A stretch of 49,629 nt of DNA, taken from contig JAUIER010000023.1 of assembly GCA_030429765.1 (NCBI GenBank), positions 1 to 49,629 on the forward strand, given 5' to 3'. This DNA comes from a bacterium. GTDB lineage: Bacteria; Omnitrophota; Gorgyraeia; Zapsychrales; Zapsychraceae. A program made the position numbers and the translations under genes. The notes beneath the pieces are model-generated. The model was not told the DNA's origin, searched no databases, and was given only the letters and a program-made list of their open reading frames with translations. This document shows positions 12,011 to 49,629 of the stretch, one piece after another (position 1 is the first letter of the stretch; each line of letters opens with the position of its first letter).

Positions 12011-12012
12011 AT

Positions 12013-14389: not shown

Positions 14390-14424
14390 TTACGTCACAA
14401 CACCACCGGCCAACCGGTTAATCT

Positions 14425-14823: not shown

Positions 14824-16181
14824 TATTCATAGTCCCTCAGATGATCGATAGCATCAATCCGTTCTTGCTGAATATCAAGAATACTCTGATCGGTGGTCAT
14901 GTCGGTAATCCGCTGTCGTAACTGCAATTCGGATTCGTACTGACCCAGCTGTTCATAGACCTCCGCCTTGGTGTCCAGGTACATGACATTGTCAGGCGAG
15001 AGTTCCAACGCCTGATCAATGATGGTCAGCGCTTCGTTGAGCTGCAGCCGCTCTTCGGCCATCAGCCATGCCAGTTCATTGTAGGCGTCGGCAAACTCGG
15101 GACGATCCTTGATACTTTGCCGAAGCAATTCCTGCTTGCGTTCCACACTGAGCGTGGCGCGACCGGCCTCATACTCGAAATAAGCGGGATTCCCGACGAC
15201 AAGAACTACAATAGGAATAATCGTCACACCGATGTTGTAGACATAGTGCATCACCACGCTGGCACGCGTGGTCCCGCTCCATACCCGGATCAGTGTCAAT
15301 CCGAAACCCACCAGCGAGACCATCAGGATCGCCATCCAGTCTCCCCAATACTGAGGCACATGTAAAACCGCAAAGGCCATCGCGATCGAGATAACCGCGG
15401 TCCGCAATCCCAGGACCTTTCGAATGATATGAAAGTAATACCCCCTGAACACGATCTCCTCGAACAGAGGCGCTACGATCAGTGCCAGCACAAAAAAGAT
15501 CATCAAAATCCACGACGTGTCCGCTGTCTGCAATGATTCGCTTAACGGCGTCGACGGATGCACATTTCGACGCAGGATAATCATCACCGAGCTTGCCGCG
15601 CACACAAGCCCCATAATCACCGGCAGCACGCTCGCCGTCCAGCGTGAGGCCGGGATTTGAAATCCCAGATTCTTCCAAAATCCTTTCGGTGAAAAACGCA
15701 TCGCCGACCGATATATCAGCCAGGCCGCTAATCCCGTCGAGAACACCGCCTCGGCCATAAGTTCATCGATCTCGGTTAATTCCCAACCCAGCATCATCCT
15801 GATCTTCTGAAACAGCATCGACCAGACGATGACCAGATAAAACCAAAATGTTAATGTCCGGCTGCCCTCAAACCATAAATGCCAACGCTCCACACGCTCA
15901 TCCGAATTGATGTACGGCTGAGGCCGGTCCGGGTCCAACGACAGCATTTCATGCCGCCGATGAAAAAAGATCGGACATACAAAAATTATCGTTACATATG
16001 AAAACCACTCGAACTCCGTGATCGGAAACAGGAGAGCAATCAGGCTCACCATCACAATGGCCAGAATCGAGCGTTTCTGCACCTGAAAGACATCCAGAAA
16101 CAATTCCCGATTGTACTTTTTCAGGAACACCGTATCGATGAGCAGGAATACCAGAAGGATTACAACTGAGAGAATATACAT
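14820..16181 (-). CDS. CPBP-family intramembrane metalloprotease with C-terminal TPR
   Basis: This is a polytopic protein of 453 residues. The CPBP (CAAX protease/bacteriocin-processing) motifs are EEIVFRG (EExxxR), FAVLH (FxxxH) and HYVYN (HxxxN), all predicted in membrane helices. The last 120 residues are TPR-like (AYNELAWLMAEE, ALELSPDNVMYLDTKAEVYE). CPBP enzymes cleave peptides near the membrane; the TPR could recruit a partner. I start at 16181, 2 bases after the rsmB-type stop; an ATG at 16241 would overlap that gene by 58 bases and add 20 polar residues before the first membrane helix. Confidence 0.85.
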   Translation of the reverse strand: MYILSVVILLVFLLIDTVFLKKYNRELFLDVFQVQKRSILAIVMVSLIALLFPITEFEWFSYVTIIFVCPIFFHRRHEMLSLDPDRPQPYINSDERVERWHLWFEGSRTLTFWFYLVIVWSMLFQKIRMMLGWELTEIDELMAEAVFSTGLAAWLIYRSAMRFSPKGFWKNLGFQIPASRWTASVLPVIMGLVCAASSVMIILRRNVHPSTPLSESLQTADTSWILMIFFVLALIVAPLFEEIVFRGYYFHIIRKVLGLRTAVISIAMAFAVLHVPQYWGDWMAILMVSLVGFGLTLIRVWSGTTRASVVMHYVYNIGVTIIPIVVLVVGNPAYFEYEAGRATLSVERKQELLRQSIKDRPEFADAYNELAWLMAEERLQLNEALTIIDQALELSPDNVMYLDTKAEVYEQLGQYESELQLRQRITDMTTDQSILDIQQERIDAIDHLRDYEY

Positions 16182-24649: not shown

Positions 24650-24666
24650 CCCGAGGAACCTTATCT

Positions 24667-26482: not shown

Positions 26483-29400
26483 CTACCGGCGTACATACCG
26501 CCAGGGATTCTGCATCAACCAGTTGCGTACAATCGGAATCCCGCGGATATCAATATACACTTCCTGCTGATACACCCGAATTTCGTCGACAAACACATCC
26601 GAAATTTCCATGTAGCGCAGCGGCCGCATCCGGTAGTATGTTTCCTCATACAAAACCTCATCCGGCTGAAGCTCAGGTGTAATCTCATCGAACAGACGCA
26701 CACCGCTCGGCCAAATACGCAGCGGAGACGTGTTGATGTTCGGCAGCGGAACAAATTGATCGAGGAACCTGAAGTCGTCCATTGGAATCGGCTCAACCGG
26801 CAGCATCTTCATCTCCTCAATCGGCATCGGTTCGGTATTGAGCTCCTCGATCATATCACGCATCACATCAAACACAATATCCCAGTCCGGATGACCGATG
26901 CGGTCCTGTCGATACATCTGCCACGGTAAATCCACATCATACGTAAACCTCAAGACAATCTCTTCTATATAGTTCGCATCACGTTCTCTGACCTTTCGAT
27001 CGTAGTAATCGCGGTAAAGCGCCACGCGCTCCGGCCGTGATTCATACAGTTCCGGCGAGGCCTGCGTGAGTGACAATTCATTTAGATCGACAATCGCGTT
27101 CAGCGGGACGTCGAGCGTCTTTTCAATCACCGGCACTTGACCGTCTACCGGCAGCCGTTCCTCAATCGGTGTCATTGGTTCCGGCGGCATGAACTGGGCC
27201 ATAAACTTCAAGCGCTTAAGGACGTATTCCAGATCCGGAATGGCCGTTAACGGGACATCGATTGATTTTTCGATTCTCTCGACGGTCTTGTCAATCTTAA
27301 TGATATCCGGAATCGGATTGATCGTGACATGCAGATTCTGCAGCCGCTCAAGATACATCTTACGTTCATCAATCCTTAGATCAGCAATCTGGAATTCAGG
27401 AAACTCGCGTTCAATTTTAAAACGGAACTCCTGCCACGCCTCACGTTGATCATACATAAATCGCTTCTTAATCTCATGAATGTAGCGCTGATCTCCTTTT
27501 AAAATCTTGCCTCGGTAGAAATCTTTCCAGGCGGCTACCCGACCGGAACCCGTATCATAAAGTTCCGGTACACCGCGCGTGAGTTCCAATTCTTTCGCGA
27601 GCAGGCTCACGGAATCAAATCCCTGAACTCGATCACCGGCATGAGCCGACGATAACATCATCGCCGCCTGGAACCGCTGACCTGCATCAAATTCTTGTCT
27701 TAGCTGATCCGTATCGACAATCGCGTTGATCGGAACATCCACCGATGGTCGAATGACCGGATGTGTTTGCGTTACCGGGTGTGGACGCGGCACTTCGGTG
27801 ACGGGATCCGGCGGAATAAACTGCGCGAGGAACTTTAAGCGTTTGAGTACGTAAGCCAAATCCGGTATGGCCGTAAGCGGAATATCGATGGTTTTCTCGA
27901 TCGGAGTAATAGTGGTATCCACGATCACCGGATCGGCGATCTGTGGCACAAAATCGGCCGCGATCGGGGCGTAATCGATCTGCAGCGACGTCTGGTCCGC
28001 CAGCTGTCGATCTGAAATCAATGTAACCGCCCGGGATTCCAACCGCGCGCCGTAGGCCTGCCATTCATTTCGCATGTCCATATCCACACGCATCGCGAGT
28101 TCATCAATATAGGACTGATCCCCTTCGGCAATCTTGCGTTCGTAGAATTCCTTCCAGACCGCCCGTCGGTCCGACGAAGTGTCAAACAATTCCGGCACCC
28201 CTCGGGTCAATGGCATCGTCCGCGCCATGATGTCTTCCGGCGTATCCAATTGATCTCGATCCCCTGACTGGGCCGACGCCACAATGCTGGCCGCTTGGAA
28301 TGCCTGCGCTTTTTCGGTGGATACCAATGGCCGTTCCAAGTCATCCGCATCGACGATCGCGTTGAGCGGCACGTCCAATTGGTGCACGACGGCATTCATA
28401 CTCGTGACCTCAACTTTGGCCATCGGGACTTCCTGAACCGGCTCAGGCGGGATAAACCGCGACAGGAATTTCAAACGTTTGAGGACGTATTCAAGATCCG
28501 GGATCGCCGTTAGCGGAATGTTGATTGATTTTTCTATGCGCGGCATGGTTGTGTCGACGATCACCGGATCGGCCACCCGTGTGTCCCGATCCGACGGCAT
28601 CAACTGCACCAGAAATTCTAATCGATCCAGCACCGAATCCAGATCCGGTATTGCAGTTAACGGTACATCTATCGTCTTCTCGATCTGAGCTAGCGATCCC
28701 GTCAAGGCCCGATCAAACGCATCTGAGTCTTTTGTCATTCGGTCAATAAATTCTGCGAGATTCCGGGAGCTCACAGGTTGATCTGTAACCGTTGATTTAA
28801 ATCGATCACCGTACGCAACTTCTATGGTTTCCCGGAAGCTCTGCCACTCCACTCGTGGATCACGTTTAAAGCGCTCTCCAATCTCTTGAATGAACATCGG
28901 GTCATTCGCCTCGATCTTGCCAACATAGAAATCTTTCCAACTCGCCACCCGCGTCTCGGTGGTGTCGTACAGCTCCGGCAATCCCCGAGTTAATGGCAGC
29001 TGCCGGGCCAGCTCGGCTTCGCGTGTTTCCGATACTGTTCGATCGCCCGATTGTGCCGAACTCACAATCGCGGCAGCCTGGAATGCAGATGATTTATCCG
29101 TGACAAACAACGGTCGTTCGAGCTCATTCATGTCCAAAATTGCATTCAACGGGATATCAAACCGATGAACCACCATGTCCATCATTGTCAACTCGATCCG
29201 TGTGATCGGTACTTCTGTCACGGGTTCCGGTGGCATAAACTGCGCGAGGAACTTTAACCGCTTGAGGACATAGTCCAGGTCCGGGATCGCCGTTAATGGA
29301 ATGCTGATCGTCTTTTCAATCACAGGCATACTTGTATCGACGATGACAGGGTCCGCAACACGGGTCACCGGCTCCGGCGGTATAAACCGCGCCAGGAATC

Positions 29401-38400: not shown

Positions 38401-41400
38401 TTTTACGTAGCTCGCTTGAGATCGCTTCCATGATTTCTAATCGCTCTGTCTGAGCCTTGGCGACTGTCTCGAAAGCGTTAGCGGCCACGTAGACTTTATT
38501 GGCTCGAACTGTGTAATCTTTGCCTGCTTCTAGTCCTAGGCTTGTGAAGGCCTTAGAACCAAGCTCTTCAACGTTAATGACATAGTGTTTTGTATCCGTG
38601 TCGTAGGCGAAGACTTTTTCCTGATATGTCATACCAAGCTTGACTTCCTTGCCATCGCGGATTTCAACGATGGTGTATCCGTCTGTCTTGATTTGTGCAT
38701 CCGATGACAACATTTCGCCGTTGGCCAATTCAACTGGATGTCCGATTTCCAGCTTAGTGGCTTGTTTCACCGGCGCCTGATCCAGACCGTTAATCGAGTA
38801 GATGTCATGCGCCGCGGCGTATACATACTGGCTGTCTGTGTCAACTGAGCGTAGTTTCAGTGTCTTGGCCGTACGTCCGTGGATGTGATCCATAACAAAT
38901 CGTTGTGAAGGATCTACCTGGTAAAGGCTTTCCATCGTGATAACCAATTTCGCTCGTTTGCGTTCGCGAGGATCAACGATGTAAACGAATGTTTCTTCCT
39001 GATCATTGGTTTGTCGAACGATCTTGTCTCCCTGCTGGATGCGGACATCTTCAACACGGATAATCGTGTTCATGTTGACCGTGCTGTCGACAGCCTTGAT
39101 CTTCGCATCGTTCAGGTTATATAGAGTAGACGCTGTTACCGTGATCTGACCAAGCTCTTTGGAGATCGCGTTGAATTGTTCTTCGACACGGAATTGAAGA
39201 TCAGCTGTCATTTCAACCAACATACCTTCAAATTCGATGGCCAGTACTTGACCCTCGGCGTCTCGGTAGAGACGGTAGAAGCGGCCTTGTTCGCTGTGTT
39301 CTGTGACGATTGTACCGTCCGCGATTTCCAGATGACCGTAAAGTTCGTAATCTCCCACAACCTTGGATTCCACAAGCTCCATTTGTCCTGAGTAAAGTGA
39401 GACGCGGTAGCGGTCTTCTGTGGTGACCAATTGCTCAAGACCGTCTTGACCTTGAACCGGAACCGCTCGTTCGTAAACCAGATCAGCCGCCTCACCCATG
39501 TAGTTATCGAAGCTCATGAAGACCTTGCGTTTTTCAGCCAATGATGCGTCTTCGTCATATGGTCGTTGGTATTTCTTAGCCACATAAGTTTCAACCATCA
39601 TTCCGGCGGCCACACGCTCAACGCCCTGGTTGTAACCTTCGATGGTGTAGACTTTGTTGGTTCGGACATCCAGAACGTATCCTTCCGGAAGAACATCATA
39701 TTCTGTATCAATATCGGATGCGTACTGTCCAAGGGCGATTCCGCCTTGTCCAACTTCCGCAACGGTGATGTAGTGCGTGTACTCTCCAGATTGATCATCG
39801 CGTAGGTACTGAACGTATCCGCCCTGAACCGGTACGGTGATCGCCTCGGCGTCTGTTGTATTTTCTTTGGCCAATCGCTCAGGTGTGACTTCAGACGTGC
39901 TGATTCGGCGTTGGTTTTCAGCCCGTCGCGCAGCGACGCTTTGTTCGAATTGTCGGATACCTTCTGACAATTGCTCAAGAACCGCGTCACGCGAGACTTC
40001 CATAACCGAATCTAATCCTTGTCGGTTGGCCGCGCTGTTAAGATCGATCATCGCGTTTTCAACCAATTTCTCTAGTTCACGGTAAGCTTCGATGTATTCG
40101 CGAGAATTTGTTCCCTTCTTCGCCGCTCGCTCAAGGGCCGGTCCGATCTTGTTACGTAGTATGTCACGCTCTTGAGTGGTGAGAAGGACGTCTTCAGCTC
40201 GTAGTACGAGTACGTACTCTGTACCTTGCAGACGCTTGCTGGTGGCGAAAAACTCAGATGACTCGGTGAATAGGTTCATACGACCCGCAACCTGCTCGGC
40301 GTTGACGCGTGAGCGAAGTGAGTAATCCAGAACCATACCCGATTGACGCGGATACTTCGCGGCAGCCTCGATTGAGATACCTGTATCGAAGGCGGCTACG
40401 ACGATTACATTCTTCGATAATCGGCCTTTCTTCTGAAGAACTTCGATTTCGCCTAAGCTTTCGACGCGCTTGCCGTCAACGTATGTATAGTCAGAATCTT
40501 TCCAGTTTCGGCCGCTTTCGGTTTCTTCACGGATCTGGATGATCTGTACGTCTAGTTTCTCAAGAAGCTTGCTGTCGCGTAGGACTTCAGCGATTTCGCG
40601 GCGGAAGGCCGGTAGGTTCGAGTCTAACAACATCACGAATCCGTCTTCACCGCGTTCCGCGAAGATCTTCTCGACCATCTCACGGGCCCGTGTTGAAAGT
40701 GTTGATTCTGACAATAGATCCAACAGAATTCTGAACTTGATATCTCGTTCAAGACGCGGTGCTTTTTCGAGCTGAACGCTTCGTCCCATGAAGGCCATAG
40801 ATGATGCCGCGTCTGGGTTAGCCGTACCACCGATTGTCTTCTTACCTGCGTCAACGATATGCGCGCTTGTCGCTCGAACACTTGGTTTGTGGATTGTCAT
40901 TTGAGCGAATGTTTCAAGGGTGACAGTTCTGCCCTTGTCTGATGCTTCAAGTTCCATACGGAATTTCGCTCCAAGGATACTCAAGATCGCGCGGCTCTTT
41001 CCGTGGAAGCCTGACTTACTAGAGAAGACTCGGTCTTCTTGGCGCTGACCTAGACTTGTGTGATCCAGTGGTGTGATTGATAGATCACCGTTCTTGTCGA
41101 AGTCGATCTCGAACTTGCGTCGCGCGATGTCTTCCAAGGCTCCCGGAAGATCACGTAAGAACTCACGCATTTCATTGTCTTTGAACAATTCGCGCATGCG
41201 AGCCTGTCCTTCAGGTCCGATGCGTTCGTTGAAGCGTCGGTTGATTTCGCCTTCGACGTGGAAAACTTCACCCTTGGCATTAGTAACAAGTTCTCTGAAC
41301 TTGACAGCGAATCGTGAACCGTTACCCTGACCGTCAGGCGTGTTTTCGACTAACCGTTCAACACCGCGTTTGAAGTTACCTTCACCGATTTCCAACGCGA

Positions 41401-44400
41401 ACTTGACAACTTCTTCACCGTAGATTTCAGCGAATTCTTTTTCAGCTTTAAGGATTTCGATCAGATCCTTACGTCCTGATTCATTAACGAACTTGCGCCC
41501 GAATCCTTTAACCGTTCCCTGAATCAAGTCAGCCATAGTCGCGGCGATGTGGATCTCGTCCTTATTACCGTATAGATCTTTAAGCATATCCGCTTCTTGT
41601 CGGGCCGCTTCAGCCGCTTGATGCGCCTTGACCTTGTCGCCTGTTTCAGCCCGTACGCGGTCAAATGCTTCTTGTCCGGCCTTTTCACGCTCTAGGATAA
41701 TTTCCTGAACTTGCTTGTACGTCAATAGAACGTGACGCTTGTCACCTGATTCGATGTATTCACGGAAGGCCTTGGCATCGATTGAACCGCCTAGCTCTCC
41801 GTCACGTGTTGTCGGCCATACGAAGTATTCACCGAATTCTTTGTGCAGACGGATCAGAAGGTCAACTGTGTTTGAACTGGCGAATGATCGCATACCTTCA
41901 CGGCTCATTTCGACAAGCAGATGTTTCGCCATAACCGATTTACCACCACCGAACATCTTGACGATGACGATCAGGTTATCCGCCATATCACCCTTCACGG
42001 CCTCAGCTGATAGCTTGATGCGGAAGGCGTCATCGAATAGTTCTTCTCGTGTTCGGTACGCCCATCCTTCTTCGGTGAACAGCCGTGATAGCGTTCGCTC
42101 AGCCAGGTTCATTTCGCGGTCGGTACGTGGGATCAATGTGTAGAAGCCTTCTTCTGATTCCTTAACGATGTTGCGGTCTTTGAAGTTGTCGATCTTGACG
42201 ATTTCGCCGACTTCTCTGACGAAGGCTTCAACGTTGCTGGCCTCACGCAATAGTCGTGATCGGTATAGACGCCCTTCTTCAGTAATATCCATTCGGTCTT
42301 CGGCTTTTCCGTTGCGGATCGATCCATTAGAGATCGGTCGGGCCGGATTACCGCGAAGTTCTGATCTTAATCGCTCCAGCTTCTTGGCCGCTGAACGGAA
42401 GCTCAAGCGTTCTTTGAGTCGCTGGATCCATGTCTTCGACTTGATGATGTCAGATGACTGTTCTGATCTTGTGTTTTGTAGACCGTCAGCCGCGATGGCG
42501 CGTGTTCGTGCCGTTGTAGTGAATGTCTCCTTGAACAGCTGTACGATTTCGAAGGCAACCTTCTTCAATCCGCTGATCAACTCAAGTGAGCGGCGGACGT
42601 GTGGCGGTGCCCGTGTGACCATTGATGTCGATACTTCAGCTCCGTTCTCAAGTACATCCCGAACGATGCGGTGAGCGGCCATGGCCTCTTTTGTATTGCC
42701 AAGTTTGGCTCGAAGTTCAGCTGAAACGTTCAATCGGCCTTGTTCGATCAGCTCAAGCATGCGTGTGACGCGAAGCTCACGTAATTCGTGGAGTCGGCGC
42801 GTTCCGTCATGAACGAGAACGGTTACACGTTTACCGTTCACTACGTCTTTGTATCCAAGACCTTCACGTCCTAGGAACTTGACGGCCTGGCGATCGATGT
42901 ATTCGCGGATAATGAAATCTTTGCCTTCAGTAACTCGGGCTTTAACACCGGCTTGCTCTAACTCAGCTACGCGTCGGTTAACCGCGCGTCGTACTTGGCG
43001 GACACTTGAAATACGGCTTGTATCGGTCAATCGAGCCAAGACGCGGTTAACAAGGCTTAATAGCCATTCGTATAGACCGTCAACCGGTGGTTCAGGCGGT
43101 GTGCCGGCTCCGCCGCCTAGCGGAAGCGCACCAGAGTGTCCATAGACCGCAACCGGTGTTTCCAGGCTGCTGGCGTATACAGCCGCCGGAGCTCCCAAGA
43201 CCGCCTGGTCGGCGACCGGCTGACCCGCCGCTTTCATTCGGCGTAGAATGATCAAGCTGGTTAATCCAACGGCCATAGCCGCGATGATTCCGAAGACAGC
43301 GCCACGATCAGTTGTTTCCGATTCCCCAATCGTATTAACTTTAGTTTCTGTTTCTAATGAACGTGTGGCGCTGTCTCCAAGAACTGTAGCCGGTACCATT
43401 TGAGCAACCCAGATCAATGTTCCGGCAATAAGTGCTAGGCTCATAAGTTTTGTGTTACGGATGTATTTCCAGAAGCGTGACTTTCCAGATACATTTGAAG
43501 CCCGTAATTCTCCGGCGAAGAATCCAGCCGTATCGGTTTCGGCTGTCATATCCTTCTGGATACCCTTGGCAAATTGTGAAACAACCAGTCGGTAAAGGAT
43601 GATTGCCTGAATCAATTTGTTCTTATTAAGGAAGCTTGTATTCAAGACGACTTCATTACGTTCAACATCCGTTTTGAATAGGTATCCTTCTGAGAAGACA
43701 GATGATGCAGTCACATAGAATGTCATTTCTGCCGGCAATGCAAAGCTTGGCGGGCCGCGTCGGTATAGCTGGGCCATGACATCGTTTAATCGGGCCAGAA
43801 CGACTTCTGTTGAAGAATTGATTTGCTCAGGTTGTACCGCGACATATTGATCACCCACCAATTGTAATTTCAACTCACTGGTCAGATCATTGATGATTCG
43901 CTCAAATGTGATGTCGATGCTTTCTTCCTCTTCAGCCTGGACGTTAGCGCCCAACCATTTTCGTAGGTATCCGAAGAAGGCCACATTCAAGATCACATTG
44001 TGTTCCGCGTTGGCGATTTCCTGGAACTCAAGACCAAACTGTCGGGCGAAGACCCGGTTCGTTTGGGCGGTTGTGACTGAATCATCGGCTCCGACAGCTA
44101 CATAAGCCTTAATTCCATGGTCGGCCAGGTTGCGGCGGACAGCTGCCTTCTCTTCTATTTCAAGTGAAAGGTGTCGTTTCAACCATAGTGTTTCGAATCG
44201 TTGTCGGAGGCTGGTTTCTTCGATTGCCGCGTGCTCAATTAGCTTCTCATATGTATAAGAGCTGACTCGGATGAAGCGGACAAACTTACGGAATCCTAGT
44301 CCGCGGAAGAATGACTGAACTTTCACCATCCATGAATGCGGTAGACTGTCGAGAAGCATGATTCCCCAAATCATCCACTTCTGAACCTTAACTTCATCAT

Positions 44401-47400
44401 AAGGTAATGACGCGAATACGACTGTTCCGATATTGCTGATTGCCATTGGCGTAATATGACGTAGACGGCTTGATTGATAAGCGTATCGTTCGGTGAGAAG
44501 CGCCAACAGAATCTTTCCGCCGAATGAATGTGTCACAACATCAACTTTGTGTTTGGCTTCGACCGGTTGTTCTGGAACAACATTGATGTTAAGTCGGACA
44601 AGGAATCGACCGAAGCGTTGTTTCCAGCCCCGGGCTTCTTCGGCCCGCTCGGCCTTGACCGCGTTACCGTTTTGCGCGAAGTGATTGATCACCCAGCCGA
44701 GGAATTTCTCTGATCGGGCCACAAGGTGATTGATCTCAAGGATATTCTTAAGATCTACACGTTGTTCCAATGTCAATGGCTGTCCGGCGATCTCACCTGA
44801 GTTAAGGATTCCACGGATGATTCGGTCTGATCTCCAGTGCTGGATAATGATGATGGTTCGGTTTGGATACAGTCGTTTAAGCTCTTTCAGGTTGAATGTG
44901 ACGTGATCAACTACACCGTGAAGGAATAGGATCGGATCGCCGGCCGCTTTGTATACCTCAAAGTCATACGGCACGTTGATGCTGTTTTCGACATATGTAT
45001 CGTACTGTTCTTGTTCCGATTGAACTTCACGGCTGACAACAACGGTGTTGGCCTTGGCCCCGCGTTTCAAGAATGAGAATCTTGATCGATCTTCAAAGGC
45101 ACTAAGTACGGTTGAAAGCACTGTTCGGACACCTTCTGTTCCGGCCGTTGGAACTCGGATCACATCGGATGCCAAACCTTCGATCGTGTTGTCACCTACG
45201 ACAACCTTAGTCGCGTTTGGCAAGGCGTCGAACATTGGCGCGTCCAGCTGTCCTTCACCGATGATGAGGACGTCTTCTTCACTAATATCCAAGTGATCCA
45301 TTAGGTCTCGAACCGCGCCACCCTTATCCGTGCGTGAGATGTAGATCGCCATGTCTGAGGCGAATACATTTAGGGCTGCGTAGCGTGGATCCAATGCCAA
45401 TTGCAGACGGATCGCCGTGGCCGTTGCGTCGCGAACTTCTTGTGTGGTTCCGGTCATCCATACCTTCAATCGAAGCGTGCGGTCTTCGAACTGAACTTTT
45501 TCGATCTCTACAGCTGAGCTCAAGTTTTCATCCATTTCGCGGGCAATCGCGTATTGAGCTTCCAGAACGTCGATCAATTCAGCAATCTCGGCCGGATCGG
45601 CTGACAAGGTGTCGATGTAAACCGGTAGGCTCTCGACAATCTCACCACGTCGGTTGAATCGGTATCCGATGCCACCGTTGGCTGTGTAAACATACTGGAA
45701 GGCTCGTCCCGCGACCGACAGCTTGTCGCTGTATCGGGCCATTGTTGTATTGAGCCCTTTACCGGTGATAGCCGCGATGTTCACCCCGGCTTGTCGCAAT
45801 TGTTCAACCAGGCTGATGCTGGCGTCTTCGAATGCTGTTTCGTCTGAGGCCTGTCCGACAATTAGCGCATCGTTAACGTTTGTGATGATCAGCTTGAATC
45901 GTTGGCTAAGTGGAGCGAGTGTCACATTTGTAACTGGAGTGATTTCGGTGTCATGCTCAACAACCTTGACATTCGCTGCGTCAGCCGCTCGCCGTGCCGC
46001 GCGTTGGTTCCATAGTCTGAATCCGAGCCATCCGAAGATGCCTGCGACTAGGAGTCCGAATAGTATGGAGGCAGTGACAACGTTAGTTTCCGATTCCCCA
46101 ATCGTCATAACTTTAGTCTCTGTTAATGAACCTGCACTGCCTCCAAATGTTTGTGTTTCAGATACTTCTGGGACAACGTTGGCTTCAGTTAGTTCCGATT
46201 CCCCAATCGTCATAACTTTAGCTTCTGTTATTAATGAACGTCCAACGTTGCCCCGAGATTCAAATAGTTCTGCAGGGACAGCACCAGCAACTTCAGTTGT
46301 TTCCGATTCCCCAATCGTCATAACTTTAGTTTCTGTTAATGAACGTGCTGTGCTGTCCCCGAAGTCTTGAGCCTGAGTCGGTTCGGCTGTAAATAGCGTG
46401 GATACGATCACAAATACAAATGGTAAGATCGCTCCAAATATTCCTCTAAGCTGATCGATCAGCTTGGTCATTACGCTTCGACGTCCCGCTTGGGCAGCCG
46501 CGTCAAATGAATGCTCTACCGATTCGGCTAGATTTAGTCTTGAAAGTCGTTCGAAGATACGTTGCTCATTGGCACGAACAACTGAGTATGCCGGTTCAGT
46601 TTCTTTGTTCATATCACCGTCATACTCTGTAAATTCAACGTTGTATCGCTCTGCAAGGCTTCGTAGCAACCATTGCGCCACAACCAATCGACCTGTATCT
46701 TGATATGTATTTGGTCCTAATAAGCGTTGTGCCCGGGCAAGAATACGTAGTGGTGTTGTTTCAATATTGGTGGTGTTGAGGCGCTGTCCAAATACGGTTA
46801 CGCCACTTCCAAATGTGAGGTAGAAGTTCTTATCATGTGAATTATTGGCCGCTTCGAAGATATCCATTTCTTCGACTCCGTAGATGCCGGCAGATCCCAA
46901 CTCTTCACTCATCGCTTGTCCTTCGAATAATGACATAAGTGAGATGCCCAACTCAGATCCGATAGAGATGTTCTTCGTGACAACAAATACGTCAATGTCT
47001 TCACCGTATGGCATACGTGTTCCGGATGGGTAGCTTCCCCAGAACTCTACCAGACTTCCTCCAACAGTGATGTTGAGGATCTCAGCGTTCGGATATTTGC
47101 GCTCGATGAACTTCGGTAGATATTCTTGAATAACCCGAAGCGCCTTGAGTAATTTAACTCGTCTTTCGTCATCCGCTGAAGTACTGGTGTATGTATATGT
47201 TTCTGTCAACTGAGCAACCATTTCTTCGTATGTGTCAACACGTGGACCTTCCACATAGACATCGAAGCTGCTCATATCCTTCCAGACCGTGTTGGTCAGA
47301 TGTTGTTTTCTTAACTCGACAAACTCCAATGGATATTCAGGTGTATCCTGAGTTTCCATCAAGAATAGGAGTGATAGGGCCGGATCAGCATTGTTGTAGC

Positions 47401-49629
47401 TAGATACATATGTGCTGCCGTTGTAGATAAATCCGTTAAGGACATCTTCAGCCGCTTCGCTGACATACAATTGTCGATTAGCGATCAATTGTCGTAGTCG
47501 TTCGTATCGAACTTCGTCATTTGTCAACTTGTAGAAGCTTAGAACTTCCTTGACGAATTCCGGTGCCAACTTGTTGGAAACGGCCTCAAACTCTTCAAAC
47601 GCCTGGTCGCGAAGTTCTTGTACTTGGGTGCGGCCTTGTTCCGCCGTAATATTCGCGCGAAGCGCGAGTTTGCCAATCTTGCTGCCGGCTTGTTGTCGTA
47701 GCGCTCTGCGGATCATCCAGATTGCGGCTGCTGTGGTGGCCGCTACCGCTGCCCCAAGAACGATCACTGTACCGGCTGTTCCTAATACACTATTTAGAGA
47801 AGCGACAGCGGCCAGAACGAATGCCGGAACGATTGAGCTGTAAAGTTGCACTGAACCATTACTGTCACGTCGTGTTTCGAATCGATCCGCTTCGTATCCC
47901 TTATATCCTTCATCCAGATAGTTACGGATGGATTGAACGAATTGCTGATAGTAGGCTTCATTGGTGCCCTGGATGGCCGCCTCGAAGAATGCTCGCCATT
48001 CGTTTTCCGGAAGCGCGTCGCGGATACCATCGAAGATATAGTTTCGATTTTCCTTCGCGAAGCGGAAGTTCGAATCGAGAATATATGTCATGTAGGCTTC
48101 GAAATTGAAGTGATGAACAACACCGTCAAATGGTCGGATTTCGTTCAAGGCCCCTAGGTGATCTAGGTCGATGTGTGACCAGAATCCGCGGCTGCCGTTG
48201 GCTTTCAGCTTCCAGTTAATTGGACGGATATCAGATACCCATTGTTCACGATCAAGTGATAACCACATGGCCACTGACGATCGGATGACACGTCGCTGGG
48301 CGACGTCGCCTTGCTGACGTGTATGTGTAGCCTTGTATTCCTCAAGCGTTGGTCCAGCCTCAAATTCTACGATGTAGATCAAGACATTTTCGTTCTCGTG
48401 CTCAATCCAAGCGTGCTGACCAACATATGGGAACAATGGCGGCTTATTGGCATGTAGTTGTTTAGCCGCTTCCCAGATACGGGCTAGATGAGATTGGTTG
48501 AATACAACGTCTGAGCCTTTGTTTTGTCGCTCTTGAGCTGTACGTAAGACCTTGAAGATCACGACACGTTGAGCCAATGTTAATGGTTGTGAAGTAACAA
48601 GCTCTAGTTGATAAACGCGTTTGTGGTTTCCTCGTTCGCTGTAAAGTGTGACGCGAACTTCTTCAATCTTGTTAAGATCGATGTCACGGCGGTGGATATC
48701 GTAGTAAGACTGAACAAGCAATTCAGGCTGTTGTGCTACTGTCTTAAGGATCACCGCTCGGTCACGGCCTGTGATTTCGAATCCTTCAACCGCGCTTGTG
48801 AATGTAACGATTGACTCTGGCAATTGAGCTGGCTGATCTCCTTTAACAACATGTGCATCCAATCGGAAGCCTCGATTGGCGAAGGCTTCTCGTCCGATTT
48901 GATCGAAGATCATCTTGGCACGTTGTAGAAGCAGGCCGGCGCGCTCATTCTTACCGCTTTCATGGACCATGATTTGGTCGATCATCCAGTTGGCTTCTTC
49001 ACGTCCTAGGTTCAACGCTTCGCCTTCTAGGATAGATCGGAATGTTCCTTCGCCGCCGCTGATGTTCCAGATGATTGCTCCGTTACGGCTTGTGGCTACC
49101 GCGAACTCTGATCGATCTTCACCGAGGATGTCATTCACCGCTTCTAGCACATCAGCGATCCATTCGAATCCGTCAGCCACGTCCGTGAACTCGGCGGCTG
49201 CTGCGCGTTGACCTTGTGGTGTGATGTTGTGTGTTTCAACCCGGCCAGTGTCTGTGCTTGAACCTTGCGCGAAGCGCGCGATTGATTTTGCGATCATTCC
49301 AAGACCAAATACCGCTAATCCGATCACAAATAGTACTACAGGAGCGAAGCCGTAACCTCGAGTTTCCGATTCCCCAATCGTTCTAACTTTAGTTTCTGTG
49401 TTCAATGAACCGGCTTCGCCCCTGATATTAAGAGTAGTGTCAGAGACAGCACCAGCAACTTCAGTTGTTTCCGATTCCCCAATCGTCATAACTTTAGTTT
49501 CTGATAATGAACGTGCGATGCTGCCTCTGATAGCGTCGATTGATCCGCTGATCAATCTTGAAATGTTCTCGAAGACGACACTGTAACCTCGAGTTTCCGA
49601 TTCCCCAATCGTTCTAACTTTAGTTCCTG
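26483..49629 (-). CDS. Giant membrane-stapled multidomain protein (N-terminus outside window)
   Basis: One frame runs without a stop from the right edge (first full codon at 49627) to TAA at 26483, at least 7,714 residues. No start can be assigned: an in-frame TTG at 49555 has coding sequence of the same kind before it. In protein order: tag cluster and membrane helix, kinase-like segment (about 48,100-48,600), helix hairpin (47,700-47,840), nucleotidyltransferase-like motif (47,000), tagged hairpin (46,010-46,441), degenerate HAD-like domain (45,180-45,905), alpha/beta hydrolase (43,930-44,950), tagged hairpin (43,240-43,455), SecA/SF2-like ATPase (40,140-42,300), beta-rich segments with two HExxH motifs (38,058 and 36,498), an acidic linker (35,420-35,590) and interleaved repeats to the end. 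Very long ORFs are known in Omnitrophota. Function is unknown; attachment or host-directed roles have been suggested for other giants, but nothing here proves that. Confidence 0.93.
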   Translation of the reverse strand, partial: GTKVRTIGESETRGYSVVFENISRLISGSIDAIRGSIARSLSETKVMTIGESETTEVAGAVSDTTLNIRGEAGSLNTETKVRTIGESETRGYGFAPVVLFVIGLAVFGLGMIAKSIARFAQGSSTDTGRVETHNITPQGQRAAAAEFTDVADGFEWIADVLEAVNDILGEDRSEFAVATSRNGAIIWNISGGEGTFRSILEGEALNLGREEANWMIDQIMVHESGKNERAGLLLQRAKMIFDQIGREAFANRGFRLDAHVVKGDQPAQLPESIVTFTSAVEGFEITGRDRAVILKTVAQQPELLVQSYYDIHRRDIDLNKIEEVRVTLYSERGNHKRVYQLELVTSQPLTLAQRVVIFKVLRTAQERQNKGSDVVFNQSHLARIWEAAKQLHANKPPLFPYVGQHAWIEHENENVLIYIVEFEAGPTLEEYKATHTRQQGDVAQRRVIRSSVAMWLSLDREQWVSDIRPINWKLKANGSRGFWSHIDLDHLGALNEIRPFDGVVHHFNFEAYMTYILDSNFRFAKENRNYIFDGIRDALPENEWRAFFEAAIQGTNEAYYQQFVQSIRNYLDEGYKGYEADRFETRRDSNGSVQLYSSIVPAFVLAAVASLNSVLGTAGTVIVLGAAVAATTAAAIWMIRRALRQQAGSKIGKLALRANITAEQGRTQVQELRDQAFEEFEAVSNKLAPEFVKEVLSFYKLTNDEVRYERLRQLIANRQLYVSEAAEDVLNGFIYNGSTYVSSYNNADPALSLLFLMETQDTPEYPLEFVELRKQHLTNTVWKDMSSFDVYVEGPRVDTYEEMVAQLTETYTYTSTSADDERRVKLLKALRVIQEYLPKFIERKYPNAEILNITVGGSLVEFWGSYPSGTRMPYGEDIDVFVVTKNISIGSELGISLMSLFEGQAMSEELGSAGIYGVEEMDIFEAANNSHDKNFYLTFGSGVTVFGQRLNTTNIETTPLRILARAQRLLGPNTYQDTGRLVVAQWLLRSLAERYNVEFTEYDGDMNKETEPAYSVVRANEQRIFERLSRLNLAESVEHSFDAAAQAGRRSVMTKLIDQLRGIFGAILPFVFVIVSTLFTAEPTQAQDFGDSTARSLTETKVMTIGESETTEVAGAVPAELFESRGNVGRSLITEAKVMTIGESELTEANVVPEVSETQTFGGSAGSLTETKVMTIGESETNVVTASILFGLLVAGIFGWLGFRLWNQRAARRAADAANVKVVEHDTEITPVTNVTLAPLSQRFKLIITNVNDALIVGQASDETAFEDASISLVEQLRQAGVNIAAITGKGLNTTMARYSDKLSVAGRAFQYVYTANGGIGYRFNRRGEIVESLPVYIDTLSADPAEIAELIDVLEAQYAIAREMDENLSSAVEIEKVQFEDRTLRLKVWMTGTTQEVRDATATAIRLQLALDPRYAALNVFASDMAIYISRTDKGGAVRDLMDHLDISEEDVLIIGEGQLDAPMFDALPNATKVVVGDNTIEGLASDVIRVPTAGTEGVRTVLSTVLSAFEDRSRFSFLKRGAKANTVVVSREVQSEQEQYDTYVENSINVPYDFEVYKAAGDPILFLHGVVDHVTFNLKELKRLYPNRTIIIIQHWRSDRIIRGILNSGEIAGQPLTLEQRVDLKNILEINHLVARSEKFLGWVINHFAQNGNAVKAERAEEARGWKQRFGRFLVRLNINVVPEQPVEAKHKVDVVTHSFGGKILLALLTERYAYQSSRLRHITPMAISNIGTVVFASLPYDEVKVQKWMIWGIMLLDSLPHSWMVKVQSFFRGLGFRKFVRFIRVSSYTYEKLIEHAAIEETSLRQRFETLWLKRHLSLEIEEKAAVRRNLADHGIKAYVAVGADDSVTTAQTNRVFARQFGLEFQEIANAEHNVILNVAFFGYLRKWLGANVQAEEEESIDITFERIINDLTSELKLQLVGDQYVAVQPEQINSSTEVVLARLNDVMAQLYRRGPPSFALPAEMTFYVTASSVFSEGYLFKTDVERNEVVLNTSFLNKNKLIQAIILYRLVVSQFAKGIQKDMTAETDTAGFFAGELRASNVSGKSRFWKYIRNTKLMSLALIAGTLIWVAQMVPATVLGDSATRSLETETKVNTIGESETTDRGAVFGIIAAMAVGLTSLIILRRMKAAGQPVADQAVLGAPAAVYASSLETPVAVYGHSGALPLGGGAGTPPEPPVDGLYEWLLSLVNRVLARLTDTSRISSVRQVRRAVNRRVAELEQAGVKARVTEGKDFIIREYIDRQAVKFLGREGLGYKDVVNGKRVTVLVHDGTRRLHELRELRVTRMLELIEQGRLNVSAELRAKLGNTKEAMAAHRIVRDVLENGAEVSTSMVTRAPPHVRRSLELISGLKKVAFEIVQLFKETFTTTARTRAIAADGLQNTRSEQSSDIIKSKTWIQRLKERLSFRSAAKKLERLRSELRGNPARPISNGSIRNGKAEDRMDITEEGRLYRSRLLREASNVEAFVREVGEIVKIDNFKDRNIVKESEEGFYTLIPRTDREMNLAERTLSRLFTEEGWAYRTREELFDDAFRIKLSAEAVKGDMADNLIVIVKMFGGGKSVMAKHLLVEMSREGMRSFASSNTVDLLIRLHKEFGEYFVWPTTRDGELGGSIDAKAFREYIESGDKRHVLLTYKQVQEIILEREKAGQEAFDRVRAETGDKVKAHQAAEAARQEADMLKDLYGNKDEIHIAATMADLIQGTVKGFGRKFVNESGRKDLIEILKAEKEFAEIYGEEVVKFALEIGEGNFKRGVERLVENTPDGQGNGSRFAVKFRELVTNAKGEVFHVEGEINRRFNERIGPEGQARMRELFKDNEMREFLRDLPGALEDIARRKFEIDFDKNGDLSITPLDHTSLGQRQEDRVFSSKSGFHGKSRAILSILGAKFRMELEASDKGRTVTLETFAQMTIHKPSVRATSAHIVDAGKKTIGGTANPDAASSMAFMGRSVQLEKAPRLERDIKFRILLDLLSESTLSTRAREMVEKIFAERGEDGFVMLLDSNLPAFRREIAEVLRDSKLLEKLDVQIIQIREETESGRNWKDSDYTYVDGKRVESLGEIEVLQKKGRLSKNVIVVAAFDTGISIEAAAKYPRQSGMVLDYSLRSRVNAEQVAGRMNLFTESSEFFATSKRLQGTEYVLVLRAEDVLLTTQERDILRNKIGPALERAAKKGTNSREYIEAYRELEKLVENAMIDLNSAANRQGLDSVMEVSRDAVLEQLSEGIRQFEQSVAARRAENQRRISTSEVTPERLAKENTTDAEAITVPVQGGYVQYLRDDQSGEYTHYITVAEVGQGGIALGQYASDIDTEYDVLPEGYVLDVRTNKVYTIEGYNQGVERVAAGMMVETYVAKKYQRPYDEDASLAEKRKVFMSFDNYMGEAADLVYERAVPVQGQDGLEQLVTTEDRYRVSLYSGQMELVESKVVGDYELYGHLEIADGTIVTEHSEQGRFYRLYRDAEGQVLAIEFEGMLVEMTADLQFRVEEQFNAISKELGQITVTASTLYNLNDAKIKAVDSTVNMNTIIRVEDVRIQQGDKIVRQTNDQEETFVYIVDPRERKRAKLVITMESLYQVDPSQRFVMDHIHGRTAKTLKLRSVDTDSQYVYAAAHDIYSINGLDQAPVKQATKLEIGHPVELANGEMLSSDAQIKTDGYTIVEIRDGKEVKLGMTYQEKVFAYDTDTKHYVINVEELGSKAFTSLGLEAGKDYTVRANKVYVAANAFETVAKAQTERLEIMEAISSELRKTDAADRTALVERFNANMEAFLSTGNNELSITRNAQGQLVITTETEAPTHPLAVKVKELADKYNEEVVIDAEIEKSGGSAAQNAIDNSTMTLGYSTIINDTTDITTPEAGVLIHEMFHALDNHLKMTGQYNEGGADRTAWNIVEFFGLEVGVYFLEGAESEQGAHFYREFTEKVRAALEANRTGDWAKYSHLMKESIKVALRARNIAFRDMSRNMTALEALAAQEQGRAYPVRATISVDYDKDDYSETYEGGQRIKLARVTLTTQSGEYIGQLRKYLPTEENRAEHEVIIRQQLGLADDALITDEQFTVYKMQRSVAAAEKIGILSDIAAKFEMYHTRQDALRQFLAPYLTIQPGTDMTELDQQLMFALETVSGHASYTDFTADVTGVRRLVADILNDSNLEITRLADGNVQYQSPVSQRGFILNAETGVFVALATSRDIDAIEVGINDGLADFERRHLSGLTDRYAQMSMNLEDRLAQDLSRDVVEFNGLDEVINHRLVEGSEFSVLRHATEPKLTYDFRNRMLAFTAFGRHEVYREASGYMGEVVTDEILGSYIGTIDGQNHTTSSLVASFNAHREGTAGVTLSAVEVAVRDSLIAQNIITTNAAGEYVVVEEMGISVISQDLNNRESVIRHEDNHARYETDAEYRDAVNRLFSEIEAAETGAYEFYMAFISKDGYYSTDDRETMVREFSAYMRDMDTVSQRAMSDAKLSMPYFMAMNELYAIQKRLLALEKAYEFDGDSDRPTGIHLGSEFVTFEYNEAGQAYTTFARTLPVEVERGDVEEVQMTAHQPFNIETGEMGDVEFMKVDKDITVGDTPVYRGEIYDMTTAELRDANGRVKLATIDGALTVIGRDGSFSITLRDAADYEGIELSMQGKRMADGDITGETLTVTGDKKDIKSLGIRALAKRSQVTYDRKTKRMSVSGISFDDYTRTMAAANYTSEADETAVEAEENITPAGDVTGAEKATGEETDDDHKLNLLGDNEKEGDNAQLSLYETIRYIQTNTPYQGIVTVSPPQEAQLNILPIRPMVHVPFMLPEVEVEDDKEVIEIDLNLIMVDDKSFMGRVKVIIRKALGILDVRTVEDNTNAIQEQALQTAAAEPALATDSQVKPVETAEKPAAVGSVFIGSATTGDSKIGDSDAAQLAKELKLTRNVPEAADERDTPARDFYDQKVKDGDMRYVKELAQRFQVDQRDAWQQLRQDRMADEAWSIVFDLMPEAATEEVVSDDKAPVNGAVFYASTNTGDSEQGSDDKAQLAKELTLTKGVPELHESTEDVVAAWRNFYDKKVEEGAESYIAELAERFKRDQREEWQAYMNDRRDHAAWQAVFALVDGTVAEIGETVVIDISSVMVERPSNVSLAVPQPMIVEMMPLPEVPLGVYDYGLTHTQEAAEYVEIVKIDIRQLLIDSLLKYLDQLFDSILDRMAEIGRYRALEEQIRQLIEPTFDVLRQPLPVMTPVTVDDTPKVASDPPKRSAVFYASTNTGDSAIGSDDKAMLAKQLALTKGVPELFESTDEQIAAWRNFYDQKVKEGRAEYIEELAQRFMLDQREAWQQLKQDRAADEAWQSVFERMNKLMTTSAGDLAAVRAPDAVVIDLRSDVMTRPTIELLTMPEPATPGLIPAPEVPLGIHDYGFTHTQEATEYIEVVKVDIRQSLIDSLVEYLNNLFASILDRMSEIGMYRAMEERIKQVVDPPAYEWQSELAEEAAVVTQTVDAVPVRSAVFYASTNTGDSALGTDDKAQLAKELTLTKGVPELYESDEERIAAWRNFYDKKVLEGDQAYIQEIAQRFERDPRDEWQQFKADRQDRPEWQVVFTLMRTPIDRSDQSVDLKDESDPIKVEEQPEIRSVQYQSESADMELLATPMPPIPGLMPPVEVPIDVENIGPTHSQTSVVYILMDEWIYFESLLDRLISYLRALFDALWFNISERIDWTETTDHSQVVVSRTGAEIRDARDMQKQSAAVDQQVMDRTVEEVGATLRRSAVFYASTNTGDVITGADTTAQLAKELDLTRGVPEAFETDDERIAAWRTYYDQKVLQGDQAMIAQLRERRLRDHRDAWQDYFESRRDRPEWQVVFVESTLSSTMLPTVQETVAYQTDVVERLALPIPPMLVMVDHPEVPYTAQDQWHVEDVETAEHMILRYGFDIASLLDELVEYFMRLVSSIHEVITDILEREEAFVGYQVIIDSVQKENEHQQYHQREQQRSAVFYASTYTGDSINGTDDKAMLAKTLDLTRGVPEMTDTTPERISAWREFYDKKVKSGDQEYIEQIRRRFEMDQRREWQTYREDRRYDPAFRVIFETPRVEREFERRLQQPIEPKKMKKRDDPIYDLNYTVFYRLGPKGPRPLPPYRFWIPFYIPPADLDEDEDQERYGFLKFMAFPEVADISDSVRGVVMGAVEGPEPFSIDIKYPASHAKPNVKTPGVPPHVLPPVYDLNVKKAKDEPYRYQIFINQVNAEINNIINRLELYIFLIDDKLYRFDKIHIFDVIHPPIRIIDEIPQLEKRKIIVPEKIKIMPTRPPAPILRPLPSIFMIELMRDDFDITINAPLPISVTGAPITELVRLPVPQQFDGTIEGTVNRFEIRPIMAVRANILGLPVPLDVDIQRVGDVVRVPLNLVPQLRRIIEAPQRIDVTTPVEITRFDIQPLPIIFPDIDVDKTIDIPLTAIPDLEYVLERLRFLAQFLPPEPMTRLPDVQLIDTTIIPLDKTINIPLTAIPDLEFVLERLRLLSRYTPPEPMTPVPMPLPIEQTMQRIEKSIDVPLSAIPELEYVLERMRFLAQYQPLERVDYETSPIPIISKPEPIMPTVDVPMNAVLDLDQLLPTRAGPGSNDREADKPTDSLTFHRDQAFQAAAFYTSAQPGDRKVQTSDPGELARELPLTRGLPELYDSDERRVASWKEFYTRKIIENDELFVAEIQERFKRDARPEWQNFKDQMVADYADQFESIDDEQELMSRFLMDYTERLIERGDESNLSLVGSIQRIDKFIDVPLTAIPDLDYVLDRLRFLARFIPPEPVTRVADPVIVDTSMPVIEKTISIPLTAIPDLDYVLKRLKFLAQFMPPEPVTEVPITRIELTMMDMVVHRFDIPLNAILDMNELERPLFVTDKSSAFQAAAIVSSAQSGDRTVSETREAELARQLPLTRGLPELYDTTETRVASWKDFYVGKIEANDPMFIQEIGERFKRDPRVEWQSFRETIEVAYGDRFKSTVTDQPVSSRNLAEFIDRMTKDSDAFDRALTGSLAQIEKTIDVPLTAIPDLDSVLDRLEFLVQLMPSDRDTRVADPVIVDTTMPRIEKSINIPLTAIPDLEYVLKRLKFLSRFIPPEPVQEVPMAKVEVTSMNAVVHQLDVPLNAIVDADDLERPLVSTEKAQAFQAASIVASAQSGDRDQLDTPEDIMARTMPLTRGVPELFDTSSDRRAVWKEFYERKIAEGDQSYIDELAMRVDMDMRNEWQAYGARLESRAVTLISDRQLADQTSLQIDYAPIAADFVPQIADPVIVDTTITPIEKTIDIPLTAIPDLAYVLKRLKFLAQFIPPDPVTEVPRPHPVTQTHPVIRPSVDVPINAIVDTDQLRQEFDAGQRFQAAMMLSSAHAGDRVQGFDSVSLLAKELELTRGVPELYDTGSGRVAAWKDFYRGKILKGDQRYIHEIKKRFMYDQREAWQEFRFKIEREFPEFQIADLRIDERKMYLERLQNLHVTINPIPDIIKIDKTVERIEKSIDVPLTAIPDLEYVLKRLKFMAQFMPPEPMTPIEERLPVDGQVPVIEKTLDVPLNAIVDLNELSLTQASPELYESRPERVALYRDYYDRKVRERDANYIEEIVLRFTYDVDLPWQMYRQDRIGHPDWDIVFDVMRDMIEELNTEPMPIEEMKMLPVEPIPMDDFRFLDQFVPLPNINTSPLRIWPSGVRLFDEITPELQPDEVLYEETYYRMRPLRYMEISDVFVDEIRVYQQEVYIDIRGIPIVRNWLMQNPWRYVRR
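27075..30442 (-). repeat. Module C: nine copies of an IPLTAIPDL repeat plus short variants
   Basis: The unit of about 40 residues reads EKTIDIPLTAIPDLEYVL, RLKFLAQF and PPEPVTEVP. Full copies start near 30442, 30290, 30150, 29465, 29310, 28680, 28535, 27900 and 27270. Five shortened versions (DVPLNAIVD or close) stand immediately before module A copies 7-11. C and A alternate in a regular higher-order pattern. Confidence 0.8.
31885..34270 (-). repeat. Module B: four helical linker repeats between module A copies
   Basis: Copies near 34,270-34,090, 33,530-33,340, 32,770-32,610 and 32,050-31,885 share a proline-rich lead-in ending PEVPLGVYDYG or PEVPLGIHDYG, then THTQEA, IDIRQLLIDSLLKYL and FDSILDRMAEIG. 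The first two are close relatives and the last two much diverged. Confidence 0.75.
36270..36620 (-). other. HExxH metalloprotease-like motif 2 in giant protein
   Basis: VIRHEDNHARYET encodes HEDNH at 36505-36491. MVREFSAYMRD about 60 residues later could provide a glutamate ligand. The pattern is that of a zincin, but the motif alone is short. Confidence 0.4.
37900..38300 (-). other. HExxH metalloprotease-like motif 1 in giant protein
   Basis: LIHEMFHALDNHL encodes HEMFH at 38065-38051, in the setting of a zincin (hydrophobic residues before, helix after). A later EFFGLEVG could give the third ligand. It follows a beta-rich region of several hundred residues. Confidence 0.45.
40140..42300 (-). 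other. SecA/SF2-helicase-like ATPase region in giant protein
   Basis: VIVKMFGGGKSVMAKHLL (about 41,930-41,975) resembles the SecA/helicase Walker A. About 500 residues later IVVAAFDTGISIEAA and NAEQVAGRMNLF resemble the motif V and VI region (GRGTDI, QLRGRSGRQ). A convincing DEAD-type Walker B is not found. It may be a SecA relative that has lost or changed its chemistry. Confidence 0.5.
43314..43350 (-). repeat. Tag repeat, single copy
   Basis: A single copy encodes ETKVNTIGESET. It lies between two membrane helices (LMSLALIAGTLIWVAQMV and VFGIIAAMAVGLTSLIIL) and is preceded by GDSATRSLE, closely resembling GDSTARSLT before cluster 2. Confidence 0.88.
43930..44950 (-). other. Alpha/beta hydrolase domain in giant protein
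   Basis: DPILFLHGVVDHV supplies the oxyanion strand, VVTHSFGGKILLAL the nucleophile elbow with Ser, VGADDSVTT the acid and NAEHNVIL the His. All three triad residues are placed as expected. The long insert between the first strand and the nucleophile is helical and rich in basic residues. Confidence 0.72.
45180..45905 (-). other. Degenerate HAD (Cof-like) domain in giant protein
   Basis: The layout is that of Cof-type HAD hydrolases: an opening strand LIITNVNDALI where FDLDGTL is expected, AAITGKG for the ATGR motif, and IIGEGQLDAPMF for GDGxNDxxMF, followed by VVVGDN. Both catalytic Asp of motif I are Asn and the Asn of motif IV is Leu, so the domain is probably catalytically dead. Confidence 0.7.
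46086..46335 (-). repeat. Tag repeat cluster 2 (three ETKVMTIGESET copies)
   Basis: Copies lie at 46299-46335, 46192-46227 and 46086-46122, with a period of about 106 bases. They encode ETKVMTIGESET, EAKVMTIGESEL and ETKVMTIGESET. The cluster is bracketed by a hydrophobic stretch ending in an AxA-like site (FVFVIVSTLF, then TQAQ) and a second helix (ILFGLLVAGIFGWLGFRLW). The second copy differs in three codons. Confidence 0.9.
46985..47120 (-). other. Nucleotidyltransferase-like motif in giant protein
   Basis: VGGSLVEFWGSYPSG followed by YGEDIDVFVV matches the GS-x-DhD signature of the pol-beta/MNT nucleotidyltransferase fold, with both acidic metal ligands present. The helix before it (LLKALRVIQEYLPKFIERKY) also fits the fold. 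The substrate is unknown. Confidence 0.55.
48100..48600 (-). other. Kinase-like segment in giant protein
   Basis: The stretch contains a possible hinge (YIVEFEAGPTLEEY), DIRPINWKL in place of the catalytic loop, and HIDLDHLG in place of the metal-binding loop. The order and spacing recall aminoglycoside phosphotransferase/protein kinase folds. A clear phosphate-binding loop is not seen, so activity is doubtful. Confidence 0.35.
49362..49629 (-). repeat. Tag repeat cluster 1 (three ETKVxTIGESET copies)
   Basis: Copies of a 37-base element lie at 49593-49629, 49467-49503 and 49362-49398 and encode TKVRTIGESET, ETKVMTIGESET and ETKVRTIGESET. The sequence between the first and second differs from that between the second and third. 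The last copy is followed at once by a membrane helix (APVVLFVIGLAVFGLGMIA). The first copy touches the right edge, so further copies may lie outside. Confidence 0.9.

Follow-up and report, generated by a model that had tools for sequence, protein, structure and literature searches.

An open reading frame of 7,714 codons as the C-terminal part of a very large modular gene in an Omnitrophota genome, with a predicted SecA-like ATPase module

To what kind of gene does an open reading frame belong that takes up 23,145 bases of a single contig and runs off its end? The frame lies in the window, by which we mean the whole analysed stretch of 49,629 nucleotides, and the window is the entire contig C32 of genome G000 (3.3 Mb in 34 contigs, 95% complete). 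The original prediction had assigned the DNA to the Omnitrophota and called giant ORFs an established trait of that phylum. The relative G015 is ‘Candidatus Omnitrophota bacterium isolate UBA10174’, and giant ORFs are documented in the accessible text of several papers (PMC10066038, PMC12057145, PMC11573180, PMC13104272), the first of which describes ORFs above 20 kb as common in the phylum. The window holds a single open frame of more than 20 kb in such a genome, and since giant ORFs have already been published for the Omnitrophota, its size alone is not new.

Reality and extent of the frame

On the minus strand, 7,714 sense codons (26486-49627) are followed by a single terminal stop at 26483, so that, as had been predicted, no in-frame stop occurs from 49627 to 26483. 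The remaining five frames of the same stretch contain 277-547 stops apiece, and an equally long open frame would arise by chance with a probability of about 10^-168 (GC 0.503, 0.049 stops per codon). Codon usage correlated with that of ordinary neighbour genes in 10/10 segments of the frame (r 0.51-0.73), versus r -0.30 to 0.20 for the shifted frames. Chance and codon usage both uphold the claim of a real gene, and we regard it as practically certain that the frame is one. The contig, which contains zero N, terminates at 49629 within the frame, its cut edge falling inside a tag repeat; the start of the gene therefore lies outside and is not recoverable from C32, and the full protein is longer than what is seen, also as predicted. 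What is seen is the 3' (C-terminal) portion of a single very large gene whose 5' end is cut. MutS and MutL genes (window 22046-26475), arranged head-to-tail, converge on the giant gene, the stop of MutL and that of the giant gene being 7 bases apart, and further off (window 10859-13524) a secretin gene adjoins an N-acetylmuramoyl-L-alanine amidase gene.

The N-terminal head that is shared by related giants (described below) has a single match in genome G000, on contig C18, in a 9,757-codon frame that runs off its contig. The congener G001 has one frame of 16,007 codons in which tags (residues 9558-9805 and 13144-13213), segments resembling residues 7001-8505 of C18 (at 14245-14816) and a window-type tail with repeats and C-terminus (14880-16007) follow in this order. 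Because C18-like and window-like segments are carried there in one frame, C18 and C32 probably belong to a single gene; we hold this join, drawn through the sequence of the congener, with good confidence, and the joined gene would probably measure at least 17,471 codons. A comparison of contig ends found no exact overlap between C18 and C32. As C18 has a DExH module of its own (hhalign 97.7%, E 1.8e-12, 436 columns) as well as HExxH, joining would give a gene with two cassettes of this kind. Other candidate partners of the window were rejected, as the C1, C3, C12, C17 and C19 frames and the C6 and C13 ends have their matches among one another and not in the window, in a comparison that covered a subset of contig ends without C31 (1,384 codons at its start) and in which C15, C16, C17, C18, C19, C21 and C29 were wholly or partly masked. 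Further repetitive giant families also end at contig borders of this genome (C13/C1, C6/C3/C17 and C12/C19), as do GINWDD repeats in C34/C4, the likeness of which was judged by eye.

Modules along the frame

The features of the frame are collected in Table 1.

Table 1. Coordinates in the window of the features recognised in the giant frame
Feature	Position	Strand	Remark
Open frame, 3' part of giant gene	26483..49627	-	7,714 sense codons + stop
Tag cluster 1, 3 x TKVxTIGESExT, at cut contig end	49349..49627	-	
Hydrophobic segment following tag cluster 1	49292..49348	-	
Two hydrophobic segments, residues 593-639	47711..47851	-	
Nucleotidyltransferase-like module (GGSxxEFW..SYP..RMPYGEDxD)	46508..47311	-	fold name by eye; without Pfam match
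Signal-peptide-like hydrophobic segment preceding tag cluster 2	46385..46441	-	
Tag cluster 2, 3 tags, flanked by two hydrophobic segments	46088..46369	-	
Hydrophobic segment closing the hairpin of tag cluster 2	46025..46081	-	
HAD-IIB-like module	45083..45910	-	degenerate motif I (by eye)
Alpha/beta-hydrolase-like module	43988..44980	-	Pfam Abhydrolase_1 E 0.014, under cut-off; triad by eye
Hydrophobic hairpin, one tag between arms	43244..43438	-	
Conserved core, residues 2235-4475	36203..42925	-	full-length alignment with G015 giant ORF
SecA-like DExH ATPase (GGGKS, DEIH, GTA, QxxGR), residues 2524-3255	39863..42058	-	
Putative zincin 1	37643..38395	-	HEMFH at 38051-38065
Putative zincin 2	36083..36835	-	HEDNH at 36491-36505
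Tail repeats, 11 copies	26870..35038	-	
Tail-repeat copies 1-6	34763-35038, 34418-34702, 33698-33985, 32963-33250, 32180-32467, 31514-31798	-	
Tail-repeat copies 7-11	29579-29863, 28799-29080, 28022-28297, 27395-27670, 26870-27082	-	
Second repeat, EKTIDVPLTAIPDLxYVLxRLxFL	27098..31330	-	interspersed with tail repeats
C-terminus	26483..26827	-	alignable with C-terminus of G001 giant frame

The combination of enzyme remnants, tags and repeats had been described as one not recognised, which does not hold for the core: it aligns over its full length with another giant, the ORF of G015, at 25.6% identity (E 7e-133). A 751-residue piece of the core matched in 3/37 related genomes, its own included, and the two non-self matches lie in frames of 8,429 (G015) and 35,884 codons, the latter uninterrupted on a single contig without N.

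Within the core, the ATPase module was modelled with AlphaFold (pLDDT 79.3, pTM 0.81), and the predicted model has the SecA fold with domains beyond the two motor domains. When the model was compared with the PDB using Foldseek, ranks 1-19 were all SecA (best 1tf5, E 2.6e-9), the first non-SecA match being DinG (E 2.8e-6). In VIA, the model aligned with SecA over 502 residues (6itc, Z 16.3, rmsd 4.7) and 507 residues (3dl8, Z 15.5, rmsd 5.1); the top Z belonged to the DEAH helicase 6zm2 (17.6, 316 residues), and the helicases listed align over about 290-353 residues. An alignment of 13 sequences of the module has D167, E168, R593 and R609 invariant, and G39, K40, H170, T412, G413 and Q589 nearly so. 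The module thus has in common with SecA a predicted fold over about 500 residues together with DExH and Walker A motifs; it differs in being embedded in a giant chain, in its identity of only about 10-14% and in the lack of a profile match, and genome G000 also has an ordinary SecA of its own, on C5. Searches of Pfam, NCBIfam and PDB sequences assigned the module to no SecA or helicase family, except for ResIII in one row (E 3e-4), and SecA_DEAD matched 0/9 ATPase rows. A search of G000 with PF07517 found C5 and two weak places, on neither C32 nor C18, and hhalign of the module against the genome's own SecA gave a probability of 7.4% and an E of 0.005, though in register. Since sequence profiles miss SecA, we name the module SecA-like, not SecA: it may act like SecA, yet we do not class it as one, and it may have a helicase-like function instead.

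Profile searches with the SecA-like module matched 9/81 genomes of the order and 15/384 of the phylum, or 18 genomes when combined, 17 of them other than G000. In 15 of these 17 the module lies in a frame of at least 6,000 codons. Among the matches are three weak ones with E 7e-5 to 5e-4 (G389, G124 and G279); that in G389 lies in a 2,814-codon frame filling its 8,445-base contig, and that in G279 (E 5e-4) in a frame of 251 codons.

The ATPase is followed by HExxH motifs, of which 25 frames (among them one that is partly masked and a few from other families) contain 38, against 3.6 expected by composition. From Walker A to the first HExxH the distance is 1,240-1,302 residues in the six frames in which both motifs were located (G000, G015, G036, G038, G039 and G041). 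Putative zincin 1 aligns in nine genomes and the region of putative zincin 2 in five. As the alignment rows were chosen for HExxH, only the remaining invariant residues are informative, and a glutamate 46 residues past HExxH is invariant in 9/9 rows of zincin 1. HExxH plus a downstream Glu is the pattern of gluzincin-type zinc metallopeptidases, to which the region may belong; the best fold match has an E of 0.8. Peptidase_M91 matched zincin 1 with E 5e-4, under its cut-off, and a fold search with its model (pLDDT 70.5) returned nothing at E under 0.8.

Upstream of the core, the HAD-IIB-like module was matched by Pfam Hydrolase_3 above its cut-off (E 8.5e-6) and by NCBIfam Cof under its cut-off (E 1.3e-7). 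The earlier description of the modules as enzyme remnants suits this one, whose motif-I aspartates are lost (by eye). It does not suit the nucleotidyltransferase-like module, which is 41-48% identical in G002, G019 and G071 and keeps its GGS...DxD motif in G002 and G071, the two distant relatives inspected; nor the alpha/beta-hydrolase-like module, which has a plausible triad (by eye) and gave no match in a PDB sequence search; nor the SecA-like ATPase, the catalytic motifs of which are kept across 13 diverged sequences. Residues 119-2062, upstream, had matches in 18 other genomes of 285, of which 10/18 are in frames of at least 6,000 codons and 8/18 in frames of 1,142-4,210 codons. A GGDEF-like stretch was seen by eye in the giant frame of G015 (C7).

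The predicted tags and repeats are genuine, and both are found again in G001. Tag cluster 2 matches residues 9558-9768 of the G001 frame, and a tag search of G000 found nothing beyond C32 and a single weak place on C27. The G001 frame (on C67) also has TKVNDWGIG as a second tag, found in alternation with TKVxTIGESExT at about residues 9565-9740 and 7780-7800. The copies of the tail repeat are 36-70% identical to the first row (protein), and a tandem-repeat finder found no array. Of 285 phylum genomes, G000, G015 and G025 matched the tail repeats, all in giant frames; G001, absent from the matches of this draw, has three copies, and its C-terminus aligns with that of the window at 29% identity (119 columns, E 1e-4). 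The second repeat, about 25 residues long, was matched by the Plasmodium paralog model TIGR01519 above its cut-off (E 5.5e-10) and by LEH (E 2.1e-8); we rejected both matches, probably chance hits on a short amphipathic repeat.

The C39 head and the giants of the phylum

Related frames whose 5' ends are intact have in common an unusually invariant N-terminal segment of signal-like character, RFxxW...FxPxQxSWAFxYN, in which R, F, W, A, F, P, Q, SWAF and YN do not vary, and after it a C39 peptidase domain. In an alignment of this head from 10 genomes, Peptidase_C39 was found in 10/10 rows, with NCG and EHF invariant. The head of C18, outside the window, matches PF03412 (E 6.2e-10, 39.5 bits, cut-off 22) and keeps the Cys and His of Peptidase C39, the double-glycine peptidase of bacteriocin exporters. 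The domain here differs in being part of a giant protein, where a signal-like segment precedes it, and Pfam reported no ABC transporter domain in the C18 frame.

The head profile matches 192/384 phylum genomes at E <= 1e-3, a number that is not a count of giant heads, since many of the weaker ones are confined to the C39 part (positions ~100-254) and lie in frames of about 1,000-4,000 codons. The 30 best loci comprise 14 in frames of at least 7,000 codons, 13 in shorter ones that run off their contigs and three exceptions: G015, which has a scaffold gap, and G043 and G009, whose head-bearing frames end inside contigs after 2,265 and 772 codons. Head-bearing frames among those listed reach 57,756, 42,913, 39,957 and 39,687 codons. 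Within the order, the head matches once per genome in 35/35 matching genomes. Head and SecA-like module share one N-free frame in nine genomes (G007, G018, G021, G036, G038, G039, G041, G046 and G051), and the window frame has a SecA-like module followed by HExxH, one of the two traits by which we define the C39-head giants, the other being the head itself. We consider it highly probable that the window gene belongs to this phylum-wide family of modular giants, which, as far as alignments go, would be an alignable and searchable family taking in at least part of the Omnitrophota giants.

A giant ORF of 39,678 aa has been described in ‘Ca. Velamenicoccus archaeovorus’ LiM (Seymour et al. 2023, PMC10066038), and G153, one contig of 1,974,201 bases with a 39,687-codon frame, is very probably this organism. 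Its giant matches the head profile (E 6.7e-29), the N-terminus showing the shared signal-like motif along with a C39-like domain, and HExxH motifs are present. It is, however, less similar to the window gene, and its DExH module is weak (79%, E 1.7e-5) and limited to the ATP-binding part. The window tail repeat was not found by pattern in the G153 frame, about one third of which was masked. According to PMC10066038, Omnitrophota giants show little conservation, carry few annotated domains and are unclear in function, and peptides of one giant ORF were 3-fold up in host-attached cells. The giants of West-Roberts et al. 2023, as rendered in citing papers, share with ours the size class, the phylum and a suggested role in predation. 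In the literature on Omnitrophota giants, no title or start of an abstract mentions either a head of the C39 type or a SecA-like module, which is weak evidence of absence, as the search was thin on preprints and most subscription papers.

Proposed function and alternatives

The product is likely an envelope or predation machine. By the positive-inside rule, applied by eye, the tags would lie outside and the enzyme modules inside, and the head, judged from its sequence, would argue for export. For V. archaeovorus, an open contact between its cytoplasm and that of the prey has been reported, and the authors infer that molecules are transferred (PMC13153191). Taken with this, topology and head are most economically explained by a contact or delivery protein that is assisted by a motor. 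The head would send the chain into the envelope via Sec, and membrane hairpins would keep it there with the tags outside, while the repeat tail would bind or anchor. On contact with another cell, the ATPase would spend ATP on moving polypeptide through a membrane channel, be it modules of the giant itself or partners of it. Cleavage of the giant or its target would fall to the C39 and HExxH domains, and the interchangeable enzyme modules would be the payload. All steps past the kept ATPase motifs are inferred. We are evenly divided on whether the frame is the C-terminal part of a very large modular envelope protein that works by this mechanism, which is our best explanation overall, and the motor-driven delivery step is tentative and, to us, doubtful. 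Export of the entire chain by the head would place the ATPase in surroundings poor in ATP, unless its site of action is the prey or it remains inside; the narrow reach of the SecA-like profile (only 15/384 genomes, one in a 251-codon frame) also counts against our explanation. Polymorphic toxin systems combine a conserved delivery N-terminus with a variable C-terminal toxin and an immunity gene; here a conserved head and variable modules were seen and no immunity gene was recognised, the 3' neighbours being MutL and MutS.

The chain might instead be a polyprotein that the C39 or HExxH domains or signal peptidase split into proteins of ordinary size once it has been translated, the hydrophobic segments being signal peptides or membrane stops. 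The C39 head and HExxH regions would suit this, as would the signal-like segment ending in TQAQ that precedes tag cluster 2, and processing of giants is suggested by West-Roberts et al., according to the accessible text of PMC13104272. Nevertheless, strict A-x-A after positive-before segments was not significantly enriched (13/54 versus 8/65 in the opposite orientation, p 0.15), and by scan several long frames have one (G041) or zero (G045, G047 and G052) hydrophobic segments, so we regard such cutting as rather improbable. We give similarly low credence to a mainly structural surface coat or adhesin with enzyme-like modules as degenerate binding domains. The repeat tail and the dead-looking HAD motif point that way, and coat and adhesion roles are proposed for other Omnitrophota giants in the available part of PMC10066038, but the DE of the ATPase is invariant in 13/13 rows, its Walker A lysine is nearly invariant and HExxH is far more frequent than expected.

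That the modules were captured through stop loss, the whole decaying or passively fused and free of selection, is very unlikely. Module order and content do vary strongly between relatives, and the upstream modules lack wide conservation; against this stand 7,714 codons without a stop and with a uniform codon signature, a core kept in frame at 25.6% identity across its whole length, and the single head match in each of the 35 matching genomes of the order. Least credible of all is an assembly artefact, in which a collapsed repeat joins separate genes. C32 does end in a tag repeat, several other G000 contigs end in long repetitive frames and the copy number of the tail repeat could be wrong, yet the repeat copies have diverged (36-70% identity to the first row), the contig has zero N, and similar uninterrupted frames of up to 35,884 codons, on one contig without N, exist in other genomes.

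Returning to the motor-assisted contact protein, its boldest form, in which a giant contact protein of predatory or epibiotic Omnitrophota would work as a single-chain ATP-driven delivery machine with its own SecA-type motor, proteases and exchangeable enzymes, strikes us as unlikely. Nevertheless, half the genomes sampled match a conserved head and a SecA-like motor precedes HExxH at a near-fixed distance, which makes at least part of the giants testable module by module, and if the motor does move protein, this would be secretion in which the motor belongs to the cargo.
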